64,000 nt of DNA, taken from contig NZ_CP119423.1 of assembly GCF_029223585.1 (NCBI RefSeq), positions 1,240,001 through 1,304,000 of the forward strand. The letters run 5' to 3'. Positions within the stretch are counted from its first letter, which is position 1. Every line of letters starts with the position of its first letter. The position numbers were made by a program, and so were the translations under genes. Shown here in pieces: positions 55,854-64,000 of the stretch. Source of the DNA: Photobacterium sp. DA100. GTDB lineage: Bacteria > Pseudomonadota > Gammaproteobacteria > Enterobacterales > Vibrionaceae. The notes beneath the pieces are model-generated. The model searched no databases. It worked only from the letters and a program-made list of their open reading frames with translations, and was not told the DNA's origin.

Positions 55854-57347
55854 TTACTGTTTGGTTTGTCCTGCAATAATTGCGGCTAGCTGGTCGAGCC
55901 CCTGCCGCCAGGTGTTATTTTCACGGAAGTTGGCAAAGCTCAGGCGCAGGCAATGCGCATAGCGCTTGTTGGTACTGAACATGGTGCCGGGAAGTACGCT
56001 GATCCCTTGGCTTAGCGCCTGTTGATAAATGGCCTGACTGTCCGCATGCTCGGCTAGAGTGAGCCAGCATAAGAATCCACCGGTTGGTTGGGTCAGGTGG
56101 TAATGATCCCTAAGCTGCGGGTATTGGTCCAAGGCCTGGGTGAGCTGCTGATAGAATACCTGCTGTTTTTTAGCGTAACTGCGGCGGATTTTACCGAGGT
56201 GCTGGCGGTATTTGCCGCTTGCAAGGAATTGGGCAACCGCGGAGTGAATGAGGTTGGGGCTGCCCATGTTGTCAGTGAGCAAGCGTTTCTCAATTACCGT
56301 CTGATACTTGCCGGCCACGACCCAGCCGATACGGAGTCTGGAGTCCAATGTCTTAGATAACGAGTTGCAATAGATCACCCGGTTTTCATGGTCGAGGGTT
56401 TTCAGCGGCAGGGGACGCTGATGATGTGCCAGGCCGCCGAAGACATCGTCTTCGATAATTGGGATCCCACGAGTCATGGCGAGGAAGCGTAGTCGGTCCG
56501 CTGTCGACATCACATACCCTGTCGGGTTGTTGAAACTGGGGTTAATCAAGATGGCCTTGACCGGCCAATCTTTGAGTGCCTGCTCAAGGGCATCCAAATG
56601 AATGCCGGTGATTGGGCTCGCCGGAATTTCAATCACTTTAAGGCCCAGAGATTCTAGTAGCATAAGGTTGCCGAAATAACTGGCAGACTCGACCAAGACA
56701 ATATCCCCTGCAGAGGTCAGGGCCTGCAGGCTCAAGCTAATCGCCTGCTGCGCACCATGGGTTACCAGCAGAGACTGCTTGGAGATGGTAATGCCAAGTT
56801 CGCGGTTTATACCAACGAGTTGCTTCAATAGCAGATCGTTTCCCGGTGGCAGTTGGTAATGGCTGGGAATATGGCTTTGGTAGCGGCTGTGTCGGCCTAT
56901 TTCAGCGTACAAGCTGTTGATGGCAGGAAAGTCAGTATCAGGGTGGGCCGATCCCATAGGTAAAACCTCTCGGGATACAGGCAGTTCCATGATTTTTTTA
57001 CTGAGTGTCATTAGGTCGACAAAACCCGGCTCGGGAACCGGTTCTGGAAGTCCATGGATGACTTTGGTGCGATTGACCCGATAGCCAGAGCGGGCTTGTG
57101 CGGTGATCTTCTGGTTAGCTTCCAGTTGCTGGTAGGCACGGATCACCGTGTTTTTACTGACAGATAGCTTTTGGCTGAGATCTCGAATAGAAGGGAGTCG
57201 TTCCCCCTGCTGGAAGCTTTGTTTGTCTATGCGCTCGGAGATCCATTGGTAGACGTACTGGTATTTGGTTTTGAGCTGGCTATGTTCCTGCAACAATGCT
57301 TTTTGACACCGAGAGTTATACGTTTTCTTTGTGTTATCTGTACCCAT
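55854..57347 (-). CDS. MocR-type GntR/aminotransferase regulator
   Basis: 497-residue MocR/PdxR-class regulator: an N-terminal GntR winged helix (LPSIRDLSQKLSVSKNTVIR, about residues 50-70) fused to a fold-type I aminotransferase domain with the PLP lysine in CNSLSKTLDSRLRIGWV. Divergent from an EamA transporter gene with 87 bases between, an arrangement in which MocR proteins commonly control the neighbour. Effector probably an amino-acid-related amine; unknown. Confidence 0.92.
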   Translation of the reverse strand: MGTDNTKKTYNSRCQKALLQEHSQLKTKYQYVYQWISERIDKQSFQQGERLPSIRDLSQKLSVSKNTVIRAYQQLEANQKITAQARSGYRVNRTKVIHGLPEPVPEPGFVDLMTLSKKIMELPVSREVLPMGSAHPDTDFPAINSLYAEIGRHSRYQSHIPSHYQLPPGNDLLLKQLVGINRELGITISKQSLLVTHGAQQAISLSLQALTSAGDIVLVESASYFGNLMLLESLGLKVIEIPASPITGIHLDALEQALKDWPVKAILINPSFNNPTGYVMSTADRLRFLAMTRGIPIIEDDVFGGLAHHQRPLPLKTLDHENRVIYCNSLSKTLDSRLRIGWVVAGKYQTVIEKRLLTDNMGSPNLIHSAVAQFLASGKYRQHLGKIRRSYAKKQQVFYQQLTQALDQYPQLRDHYHLTQPTGGFLCWLTLAEHADSQAIYQQALSQGISVLPGTMFSTNKRYAHCLRLSFANFRENNTWRQGLDQLAAIIAGQTKQ

Positions 57348-57434
57348 TAAAAATCACCAAACTGTCCCTGTTAAGATTTTTGTGCCCATTTAAAGTAAGG
57401 GTAATTAAGGGAAAAGAAAAGTGGGTGACCTATA

Positions 57435-58337
57435 ATGACGCGATTTATTCCATTCTTGTTTGTTGTTCTCTGGAGCTCTGGCTTTATTGGCGCACGGCTC
57501 GGTTTACCCTACGCCGAACCCGCAACATTCCTCTTAATCCGGATGGTTGCGAATATCGCGGTGTTTTTGCTGCTGGTGGCTATCCTAAGAGCTCGGATAC
57601 CGACCGGCAGGGCGCTGGTTCACTGTATGGTGGCAGGCTTGTTGATCCACGGTTTTTACTTGGGCGGTACCTATATCGCGATTGGCCTCGGTATGCCGGC
57701 AGGGCTGTGCTCCCTGCTGGTAGGGTTACAGCCAATAGTGACCGCGCTGGTAATGTTCGGCTGTGCAGGCGAGCGAATGCGGTTGTCGCAATGGATCGGG
57801 TTGGCAATTGGCTTTGTTGGCATCAATCTTGTGCTGCAAGGGAATATGGCTTGGCATCAGGATGGTAGCCGAGAAGCCGCCTATCTGTTCACTTTCCTGG
57901 CTTTGGTGGGGATAACTTTTGGTACGCTTTACCAGAAAAAGTTCTGCCAAGGTATTGATATGGTGGGCGGAGCCGTATGGCAATATTTTGCGGCGGCTTT
58001 GTTGTTCCTGCCTTTGGCTCTGGCGACGGAAACCATGGTGGTACATTGGACCCCGACGTTTATATTTGCCCTGAGCTGGTTGGTCTTGGTGCTGTCGGTC
58101 GTCGCCATTTTATTACTGCTTTATATGGTGAAGCATGGTGAGTCATCCAAGGTGGCTTCGACCTTTTACCTCGTACCGCCAATGACGGCTTTCCAAGCCT
58201 GGTTGATTTTTGGTGAACGTTTTGACGAGTTCGGTGCCGCCGGTTTTCTGTTAGCTGCCATCGCCGTTTTCCTTGTGACGAGAAAGCCTAAACTGGCCGG
58301 CACGAACACTTACTCTTCGGCTAAGCCGGCTTCTTAA
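57435..58337 (+). CDS. EamA/DMT-family transporter
   Basis: 300-residue drug/metabolite transporter with ten membrane segments and two EamA halves (WSSGFIGARLGLPYAEPATF in the first; KVASTFYLVPPMTAFQAW in the second). Likely an exporter of an amino acid or small metabolite; the substrate is unknown. Divergent from the MocR-type gene, its probable regulator. Confidence 0.9.
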   Translation: MTRFIPFLFVVLWSSGFIGARLGLPYAEPATFLLIRMVANIAVFLLLVAILRARIPTGRALVHCMVAGLLIHGFYLGGTYIAIGLGMPAGLCSLLVGLQPIVTALVMFGCAGERMRLSQWIGLAIGFVGINLVLQGNMAWHQDGSREAAYLFTFLALVGITFGTLYQKKFCQGIDMVGGAVWQYFAAALLFLPLALATETMVVHWTPTFIFALSWLVLVLSVVAILLLLYMVKHGESSKVASTFYLVPPMTAFQAWLIFGERFDEFGAAGFLLAAIAVFLVTRKPKLAGTNTYSSAKPAS

Positions 58338-60371: not shown

Positions 60372-61211
60372 CTAAAAAGGATACCAGAAGAGCTGTTCGG
60401 CGGAGTAACGGTTGGCAAAGCCCAGGGCCAAGATCACGGCGATGGTAAACAAAACAGCGAAATCCGCCTTGGTCAGCGGCTTCAAGCTATACCAGCTGCG
60501 ACGTTTGTGCTGGCCAAATCCGCGTAAGGTCATCGCATTGGAAATCACATCTGCACGGTCAAGGCTGGAGAAAATCAATGGGCCAAGAATTTTGGCCACA
60601 TTTCTAATGCGGGTAAAGACCGGCGCATTTTTCGAGATATCCACCCCACGTGCCTGTTGGGCATGCATGATGTTGATGAAGTCCTTGGTCACTTCCGGTA
60701 GGTAGCGCAATGTCAGGCTCACCGCATAGGCAATACGGTACGGGACGCCTAGCTTATTCAAGCTAGCCGAAAACTCCGTCGGGTGGGTGGTAAACACGAA
60801 TACCAGAGCGACTGGGAACATGCTGAAGTACTTCAGGGTAACGGTTATCAGGTAAAACAGGGTTTCCTGGGTTAGGGAGTAGTTACCCGGCAGCGGGATA
60901 AGTACGGTTTGGCTGCCCATATACTCAGTTCCCTGCTGCGGTGCAATCAGATACATGAACAAGGCATTGAGCAGCAAAACCGTTACCGTACCTGTCATCA
61001 AGGTCTTGTAGTTGGCCGCGGGAACACGCGAGAGGCGCAGCAGGCCAAACCCGACCAATATCATGGCAACAATGATGCGGACATCGAACGTCATCAGTAC
61101 CATGGTGACCCAGGCCATAAACAAAATGAATTTGGTGATCCCATTTAGCGCGTGGAGAGGCGAGCCGGTATTGATGTAGCTAATACCGAATTTTATCTTA
61201 TTGGTTTTCAT
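60372..61211 (-). CDS. ECF transporter transmembrane component EcfT
   Basis: 279-residue inner-membrane scaffold subunit of an energy-coupling-factor importer. It has five to six hydrophobic segments and the two coupling motifs AQQARGVDIS and AMTLRGFGQH (A-x-x-x-RG) that grip the ATPases. Its start overlaps the ATPase gene's stop by 4 bases. Third gene of the operon. Confidence 0.92.
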   Translation of the reverse strand: MKTNKIKFGISYINTGSPLHALNGITKFILFMAWVTMVLMTFDVRIIVAMILVGFGLLRLSRVPAANYKTLMTGTVTVLLLNALFMYLIAPQQGTEYMGSQTVLIPLPGNYSLTQETLFYLITVTLKYFSMFPVALVFVFTTHPTEFSASLNKLGVPYRIAYAVSLTLRYLPEVTKDFINIMHAQQARGVDISKNAPVFTRIRNVAKILGPLIFSSLDRADVISNAMTLRGFGQHKRRSWYSLKPLTKADFAVLFTIAVILALGFANRYSAEQLFWYPF

Positions 61212-62908: not shown

Positions 62909-63460
62909 TTATTCTGCCTCGATCAGGTTGTAGCTTTGCTGCTTGCGCTTTGCGACAGCGCTCAGGATGAAGTGGCCGACAATGGCGATCAGTACCGTGT
63001 TCCCGGCAGCAATGATCGTTAGCTGTGCCAGCACCTTAGTAAACGGTTCGGCGTACAGCACCGCGTCAAGGAAGGCCGAGCAGCCATAGCCCACGACATT
63101 GCCGATGAAAGCCAGGAGCACGAACAAGCAGAAGTCAATGTTGGAGAACAGCCCTTTTTCAATTCTCTCTTTGGTTATTTTGGGATATAGGCCAATGACC
63201 AGGCCGACGATCCCTGAGCCGAGAACCCAAGTTACCCATACGCCCCAGCCGGCGAAGAGGTCGGTGACCCAGTGGCCGATGAACCCGACAAGAAAGCCAA
63301 CGAGAGGGCCGAATAACACGCCGAACAAGGCAAGTACTGCCATGGCGGGTTTGAGAGTGGTATTTGCAAAGACAGGAATACCAAACATAGGTAAACCACC
63401 AATACCATATAAGGCTGCACCGATTGCAATGAGCACAACTGTCTTGGCAGAGAGATTCAT
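62909..63460 (-). CDS. ECF transporter S component, UPF0397 family
   Basis: 183-residue membrane protein with five to six helices that supplies substrate binding. It matches UPF0397 ([71 protein letters not shown]). Databases often label this family a riboflavin S component by analogy; the substrate is not proven here. The ATG at 63460 has AAAGG 8 bases upstream and fits the family start; a longer frame to 63544 is rejected. First gene of the operon, behind a MetJ-type site. Confidence 0.9.
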
Positions 63461-63651
63461 GACATAACCTTTTAAAGCTCTTGGGTATTTGCTTGTACAT
63501 TGCCGGCCAAAAGGCTGCTTGCGAAGTCCAAAACAAACCCGCAATCATGTCGGGTCAGGTGTTGCAAATATCCATATTTAAGCAAGAGCAGTTATGCCGG
63601 CAGGCATAAGGACGCGACATGATACATGAACATCAAACAGAAGGGAAACCT

Positions 63652-63667
63652 CTACATCTAGACGTCT
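63652..63667 (-). promoter_or_regulatory. Tandem MetJ boxes upstream of the ECF operon
   Basis: Plus-strand CTACATCT-AGACGTCT: the second 8-mer is the exact MetJ consensus and the first matches 5 of 8. MetJ binds tandem 8-mers. It lies about 192-207 bases before the S-component start, with a possible -35 (TTGGCT) just upstream on the minus strand. Confidence 0.6.
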
Positions 63668-64000
63668 AACTCTTAGCCAAAATAGCCTGTCCTGCTGCTG
63701 GGGTGAACATTGTGAGGGGATATTACGTACCAAAGTCATGCTGTTAGCAGCAAAGCGGCAATACTCATCACAGCCAAGGCTATTGGACACGGGACGTTTG
63801 TTAATAGCTATCGATGGGCAATACTTTAATCATGGAAGGAGGCCATTTGGCTGGCAAGCAAAGCGAAGGCTTGGTTTGAGCGGAGGCTATCCTTGTGCAG
63901 AATGTGTTGCGAGATGTTTTTGCCAAATGAAAATTGTAGCTTGCCGAAAAAAAAGGAAATTTCTATAACTAGCTGCTTTTTTTAGACTTTGATGAATAAA
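63668..64000. other. Window-edge region without recognised gene
   Basis: No ORF with a credible ribosome site and family resemblance was found. I compared the strand reading into the ECF operon with FMN, TPP, SAM and cobalamin riboswitch cores and saw none. It may be upstream sequence of a gene beyond the window. Confidence 0.4.

Follow-up and report, generated by a model that had tools for sequence, protein, structure and literature searches.

Which compound does the energy-coupling factor (ECF) transporter encoded in a 64-kb stretch of Photobacterium sp. DA100 (positions 1,240,001 to 1,304,000 of contig NZ_CP119423.1; this whole stretch is called the window) bring into the cell? Three genes form an operon on the minus strand at 63460-60372 of the window and encode an S component of the UPF0397 family, a fused ATPase, and EcfT. 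Pfam and NCBIfam name the family for riboflavin, a label carried by many listed proteins, and the evidence presented here argues against that name. An earlier, sequence-only reading of the window had proposed uptake of methionine or a precursor. We infer that the operon encodes an importer of S-adenosylmethionine (SAM) or a close methionine compound, most likely SAM itself, and give this a probability of about 50%.

The operon probably belongs to the dedicated (group I) type of ECF importers, which would take up its substrate at the expense of ATP. As in group I transporters, the S component, the A-A' ATPases (fused in this operon), and the T component are co-encoded. The S component scored 155.9 bits against PF07155 and 230 bits against NF010182 (cut-off 99), placing it in the UPF0397/NF010182 family, and an AlphaFold2 model (mean predicted local distance difference test score, pLDDT, of 93.4) bears out an S-component fold. 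Its sequence sets the protein apart: searched against the proteins of solved structure, it matched no S component at E up to 1.

The transporter is under predicted MetJ control. The window genome encodes MetJ, and tandem MET boxes lie at the predicted promoter of the operon (Table 1) and are conserved in orthologues, from which we take MetJ to bind there. The minus-strand (coding) sequence of the site, from 63667 to 63652, is AGACGTCTAGATGTAG, and its plus-strand sequence is CTACATCTAGACGTCT; the site occupies -207 to -192, counted from the ATG of the S component at 63460. The pair matches the consensus at 13/16 positions, one 8-mer being exact and the other 5/8; the tandem boxes with one exact 8-mer that the sequence-only reading had described upstream of the S component, fused ATPase, and EcfT genes are indeed present. 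Taken alone, the window site is not beyond chance: with up to three mismatches, the tandem consensus was found at 17 sites in the 6.0-Mb genome, compared to 32 sites for the reversed pattern. Of the 17, a few such as those just upstream of metJ appear genuine. The orthologues make the site far more than chance.

We scored orthologues for a tandem match of at least 12/16 within 350 nucleotides (nt) upstream of the S gene, with the expectation taken from dinucleotide shuffles and with groups named by their nearest named proteins. MET boxes were found in 19/21 Photobacterium-like orthologues (the genus of the window; expected 0.11), 11/14 Vibrio-like orthologues (expected 0.10), and 2/2 Aliivibrio-like orthologues (expected 0.02), related genomes in these counts not being independent. 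In a sister family, boxes were present in 2/3 (expected 0.05), or 3/3 at 11/16, the S reading frame of one of the three loci (L067) being interrupted by a stop codon. The counts took 14 of the 19 Vibrio-like and 3 of the 4 sister-family genomes that carry the gene. The Photobacterium-like exceptions were L006 (best match 9/16) and L009 (best match 11/16); the upstream region of L006 is much shorter. Depending on the locus, the boxes stand 72 to 311 nt from the ATG, and the DNA around them has diverged over much of its length. MetJ was found in 45/46 genomes, the exception being a Psittacicella genome. In Psittacicella, where MetJ is present in 3/4 genomes, there were no MET boxes of at least 12/16 upstream of the S gene or of the DUF62 gene described below (best match 11/16).

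The position of the boxes fits the expectation for repression, in that the operator abuts the -35 region of the predicted promoter, which is directly downstream. By eye, box-bearing orthologues commonly share one layout of MET boxes, a TTTCC-like element, about 17-18 nt, a TATAAT-like element, and a GC-rich start.

The MetJ link of the Vibrionales transporter, which the sequence-only reading had drawn, is right but was already published in 2011 and 2014. A transporter named mtsABC is reported in 10 Vibrionales, six of them with metboxes that are predicted only, and is described there as possibly for cobalt (Augustus and Spicer 2011, PMC3228920). The relevant text of Leyn et al. (2014, PMC4239095) places mtsABC, as an ECF-family transporter, in the Vibrionales MetJ regulon and leaves its substrate open. 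Both traits are shared by the window operon, which is very probably mtsABC, matched by description to a text without locus tags. Beyond these reports, the present analysis finds boxes also in the sister family and adds a link to DUF62 (SAM hydroxide adenosyltransferase, PF01887).

In distant relatives, the transporter genes often follow other devices that respond to methionine or SAM. We collected the best 80 loci from a scan of genome contigs, all top matches to one Enterococcus sequence and mostly from Bacillota, with some Spirochaetes and others. The ATPase was present in 80/80 and EcfT in 76/80, the four loci without EcfT being on stretches that are short or end ahead of it; in L107 and L132 the ATPase is 2-3 kb away from the S gene. 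Of the 58 loci (from the 80) that were covered by Rfam scans, 23 have a T-box and 3 a SAM riboswitch immediately upstream (26/58), in each case ahead of DUF62 or, where DUF62 is missing (L122, L125, L128, L161), of the S gene. Such control is common, and far from universal. In all nine T-box alignments displayed, the specifier was AUG, at the column taken as the specifier position; a pattern search in 29 loci sought AUG by design, and only the nine alignments are free of that bias. T-boxes also precede a luxS gene (L096:9116-9349) and a metY-like gene (L090:3031-3276) that adjoin the operon; these too read AUG by eye and provide no contrasting codon. Across separate lineages, three unrelated devices (MetJ boxes, the T-box, and the SAM riboswitch) subject the transporter to control by methionine or SAM. 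Earlier work by Rodionov et al. (2004 and 2009) reportedly dealt with methionine regulation and with ECF transporters.

These elements leave little room for riboflavin, the substrate named by the family label, and we consider it very improbable. Neither a flavin mononucleotide (FMN) riboswitch, searched with Rfam, nor other riboflavin-linked control of the kind expected for RibU was found at 63000-64000 of the window. Where regulatory elements of the transporter were found, they were of the methionine type. In an Anaerococcus locus (L091), the gene behind an FMN riboswitch is another, ECF S-like one with weak NCBIfam scores to ECF S families, and a SAM riboswitch then precedes DUF62 and the UPF0397 S gene, so that riboflavin-type and SAM-type control stand side by side on different S components. 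Structure gives no preference for riboflavin either: ThiT, 4hzu (HmpT), and FolT fitted the model of the window S component as well as TmRibU did, and the lack of a sequence match to any solved S component applies to riboflavin transporters as well.

In the 80 loci, DUF62 was the sole recurrent partner of the transporter beyond the S, A, and T components. A DUF62 gene was found by tblastn in 47 of the 80 loci. In 46 it is upstream of the S gene on the same strand and ends within about 0.65 kb of it; the other is downstream of EcfT on the opposite strand. By clustering, other families recurred in at most four loci. Pfam, run on one Psittacicella copy, gave PF01887 and PF20257, and DUF62 was present in 4/4 Psittacicella genomes found.

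The partnership was also seen in an evenly drawn sample, used as a check because the 80 loci are the best matches to one Enterococcus sequence. Of 299 genomes sampled evenly across the phylum of a Bacillus genome, ten had NF010182 above cut-off, and DUF62 accompanied it in 6/10, compared to 10/289 of the others (Fisher p 1.6e-6). Without the genome at the centre of the sample (G437), which had been preselected from the 80 loci, the proportion was 5/9 (p 1.8e-5). In the six co-occurring genomes, DUF62 and the S gene shared a contig and a strand and were no more than about 5 kb apart; DUF62 was upstream of the S gene in three, and the other three had a pair of DUF62 copies downstream of EcfT. 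None of the S-like matches below cut-off in this sample was near a DUF62 match, and tblastn found no UPF0397 S or EcfT match near the 11 DUF62 genes in the ten genomes that had DUF62 but no NF010182 above cut-off. The 46 upstream copies were 52-76% identical to a Psittacicella copy, compared to 28-39% for ten of the 11 unlinked copies and 50% for the other.

The operon-linked DUF62 proteins appear to be SAM hydrolases, judging from conserved positions. In an alignment of 49 copies (44 of the 47 from the loci and five others), Asp72, Arg79, and His132, the putative triad, were kept in 49/49, 49/49, and 48/49, respectively, and by eye a chlorinase differs from the operon copies at these positions. 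Loci L167-L169 have two DUF62 paralogues downstream of EcfT, and the first paralogue of L167 departs at 12 conserved polar positions and keeps the putative triad. In L177 (5836-6831) and L178 (5972-6913) the DUF62 proteins have signal-peptide-like starts by eye, a hint that SAM might be hydrolysed outside the cytoplasm there. Twelve polar or aromatic residues of the S component (N33, T34, H63, D67, W75, W78, D132, Y136, E138, K142, Q146, and N154) are nearly invariant, with conservation of 90% or more in every one of three protein sets: 27 with DUF62, 19 without (together 46 of the 80, by a strict pattern), and 16 picked from vibrio-side families.

The link to methionine made in the sequence-only reading stands, through the MET boxes, T-boxes, and SAM riboswitches, and its substrate needs refinement: co-occurrence with a SAM hydrolase points no less to SAM, or to a compound derived from it, than to methionine or a precursor. 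A SAM hydrolase induced at methionine shortage would waste the costly SAM of the cell unless its substrate were imported or a dead-end epimer. The regulation and the presence of DUF62 would be explained together most simply if SAM is imported and then hydrolysed to methionine.

A serious rival, which we regard as unlikely, is that the transporter carries methionine itself or a precursor (homocysteine or S-methylmethionine) and that DUF62 separately recovers methionine from intracellular, possibly R,S, SAM. Each of the three element types responds to methionine or SAM levels and would suit such an importer, as would the listing of mtsABC in the Vibrionales MetJ regulon (Leyn et al. 2014) and the metY-like and luxS neighbours with AUG T-boxes of their own. 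Dedicated methionine importers, MetNIQ and MetT, are already described for these groups in the literature consulted, and one locus has such genes beside the transporter: in L170 (950-4719), one gene run contains MetN-like and MetI-like genes (best matches, below cut-off), an MptD-type S component, DUF62, and the UPF0397 S gene; the genes for the ATPase and EcfT follow after another 4.6 kb or so. The DUF62 proteins characterised in the publications consulted act on SAM, not methionine, and the proposed role of DUF62 in handling R,S-SAM has been doubted (PMC12120602).

We also considered a vitamin needed by methionine enzymes, namely a B6 vitamer, cobalamin or cobalt, or reduced folate, and judge this improbable. 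All of these leave the DUF62 partner unexplained. Vitamin B6 is suggested by the assignment of PF07155 also to PdxU and HmpT (PMC9997740) and by a gene for a MocR/PdxR-like regulator at 55854-57347, about 3 kb past EcfT, for which the best NCBIfam match is PdxR, below cut-off. The window S component had no sequence match to a solved HmpT chain at E up to 1, and its regulation differs from that of HmpT and PdxU. No MocR-like gene was recognised in five Vibrio- or Aliivibrio-like neighbourhoods, which were viewed by eye with no profile scan made; EamA-like open reading frames were present. Cobalt is the suggestion of Augustus and Spicer (2011), and no cobalamin riboswitch reached threshold in the 67 loci scanned. 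Folate is suggested by a weak score of the S component to the FolT-family profile (29.5 bits; cut-off 60).

Several observations weigh against SAM as the substrate or against the generality of its links. The partnership with DUF62 in the operon would also be compatible with a methionine importer together with internal recovery of methionine from SAM. DUF62 was missing from 33 of the 80 loci, from four of the ten sample genomes with an S component, and from all 42 sampled Vibrionaceae-side genomes, and it is absent from the window genome. Four operon copies from three loci scored well below the NCBIfam hydrolase cut-off of 350 (127.8-134.6, and 99.7 for one paralogue). Neither a T-box nor a SAM riboswitch was found directly upstream at Rfam threshold in 32 of the 58 scanned loci, and among nine scanned loci of the even sample there was one T-box and no SAM riboswitch. 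In one further family, MET boxes were found in 0/10 orthologues (expected 0.08) with MetJ present in all ten; MetJ control may have been lost or never gained there. This family comprises L023, L048-L050, L052-L055, L057, and L059, and several of these loci have a TATAAT-like element. Finally, no genome clearly swaps SAM synthesis for import: metK was kept in 49 of 52 carriers searched (L100 was left out), and the misses, G104 (an 86% complete genome) and two metagenome-assembled genomes, are not clear losses. An argument for SAM import from loss of metK thus failed, and metK retention gives no help to the proposal.

We propose the following sequence of events for SAM import. When SAM is plentiful, SAM-loaded MetJ would occupy the tandem boxes next to the -35 region, turning the operon off. 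When SAM is low, the S component would capture a methionine-family compound, most likely SAM, and topple, and EcfT and the fused ATPase would drive the captured compound inwards; import by a toppling S component driven by the ATPase and EcfT is the established ECF mechanism. In loci with a T-box or SAM riboswitch, uncharged tRNA-Met or low SAM would switch the operon on. DUF62, where it belongs to the operon as in Psittacicella and many Bacillota, would split the imported SAM into methionine and adenosine, and the operon would there serve to salvage methionine from SAM. The sampled vibrios, which are without DUF62, would use imported SAM directly. The wider proposal, that UPF0397 proteins are SAM ECF transporters that form with DUF62 a salvage pathway from scavenged SAM to methionine and adenosine, is tentative, and we place it a little short of an even chance.

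Table 1. Features of the transporter operon and its upstream region (positions in the window).
Feature	Position	Strand	Basis
S component (UPF0397, PF07155, NF010182), substrate-binding membrane subunit, 183 aa	62909..63460	-	family profiles
Fused double ATPase EcfA-EcfA', two PF00005 stretches and DUF3744, 565 aa	61208..62905	-	family profiles
EcfT, 279 aa, PF02361 CbiQ family; 4-nt overlap between its start and the ATPase stop	60372..61211	-	family profiles
Tandem MET boxes AGACGTCT-AGATGTAG, predicted MetJ operator	63652..63667	-	consensus match and conservation upstream of orthologues
Predicted promoter: -35-like TTTCCC (63648-63643), 18-nt spacer, -10-like TATCAT (63624-63619)	63619..63648	-	layout by eye
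Untranslated leader, about 150 nt, start point inferred	63461..63612	-	some conserved blocks

The leader of the operon had no supported RNA structure. Measured from the -10 region, leaders are about 160-265 nt in the Photobacterium-like group and shorter in Vibrio-like loci. In the Photobacterium-like leaders (63461-63627 in the window), shared blocks, among them GCTCTTG and GGATTATT, alternate with variable stretches. RNAalifold on ten of these leaders gave two pairs and zero covariation. A riboswitch in the leader was rejected as a candidate: with thresholds relaxed, the only Rfam matches were chance ones to families from eukaryotes or archaea, all of them under the gathering score of the family.

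The surroundings of the operon were also surveyed. The nearest named proteins to the window proteins are from Photobacterium. An EamA transporter gene is divergent from the gene for the MocR/PdxR-like regulator (the pair is at 55854-58337), and by eye two Photobacterium-like relatives (L082 and L083) have a similar MocR-like/EamA pair near the operon. In L069 (10636-11804), a two-gene insertion, transposase-like by eye, lies between the ATPase gene and a residual EcfT.

The DUF62 partnership is the new element of this analysis, as far as the literature searched shows: among the matches listed, no paper linked DUF62 or SAM uptake to the UPF0397 ECF family, and the text consulted of PMC2667541, PMC9712650, PMC11109136, PMC10376253, and PMC13210130 had nothing to say on such a link. 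A 2023 review describes the function of DUF62 as not obvious and points to R,S-SAM, and a 2025 paper states that the reason why cells hydrolyse SAM back to precursors via DUF62 has been unknown. The presence of DUF62 in one operon with a methionine-controlled importer suggests a testable answer, that the SAM comes from outside. If this is true, the DUF62 enzymes of these operons, with the putative Asp-Arg-His positions kept, would have a physiological role in converting imported SAM to methionine. SAM would then also be a new kind of ECF transporter substrate, and the UPF0397 family would, to our knowledge, include the first ECF-class transporter for SAM.
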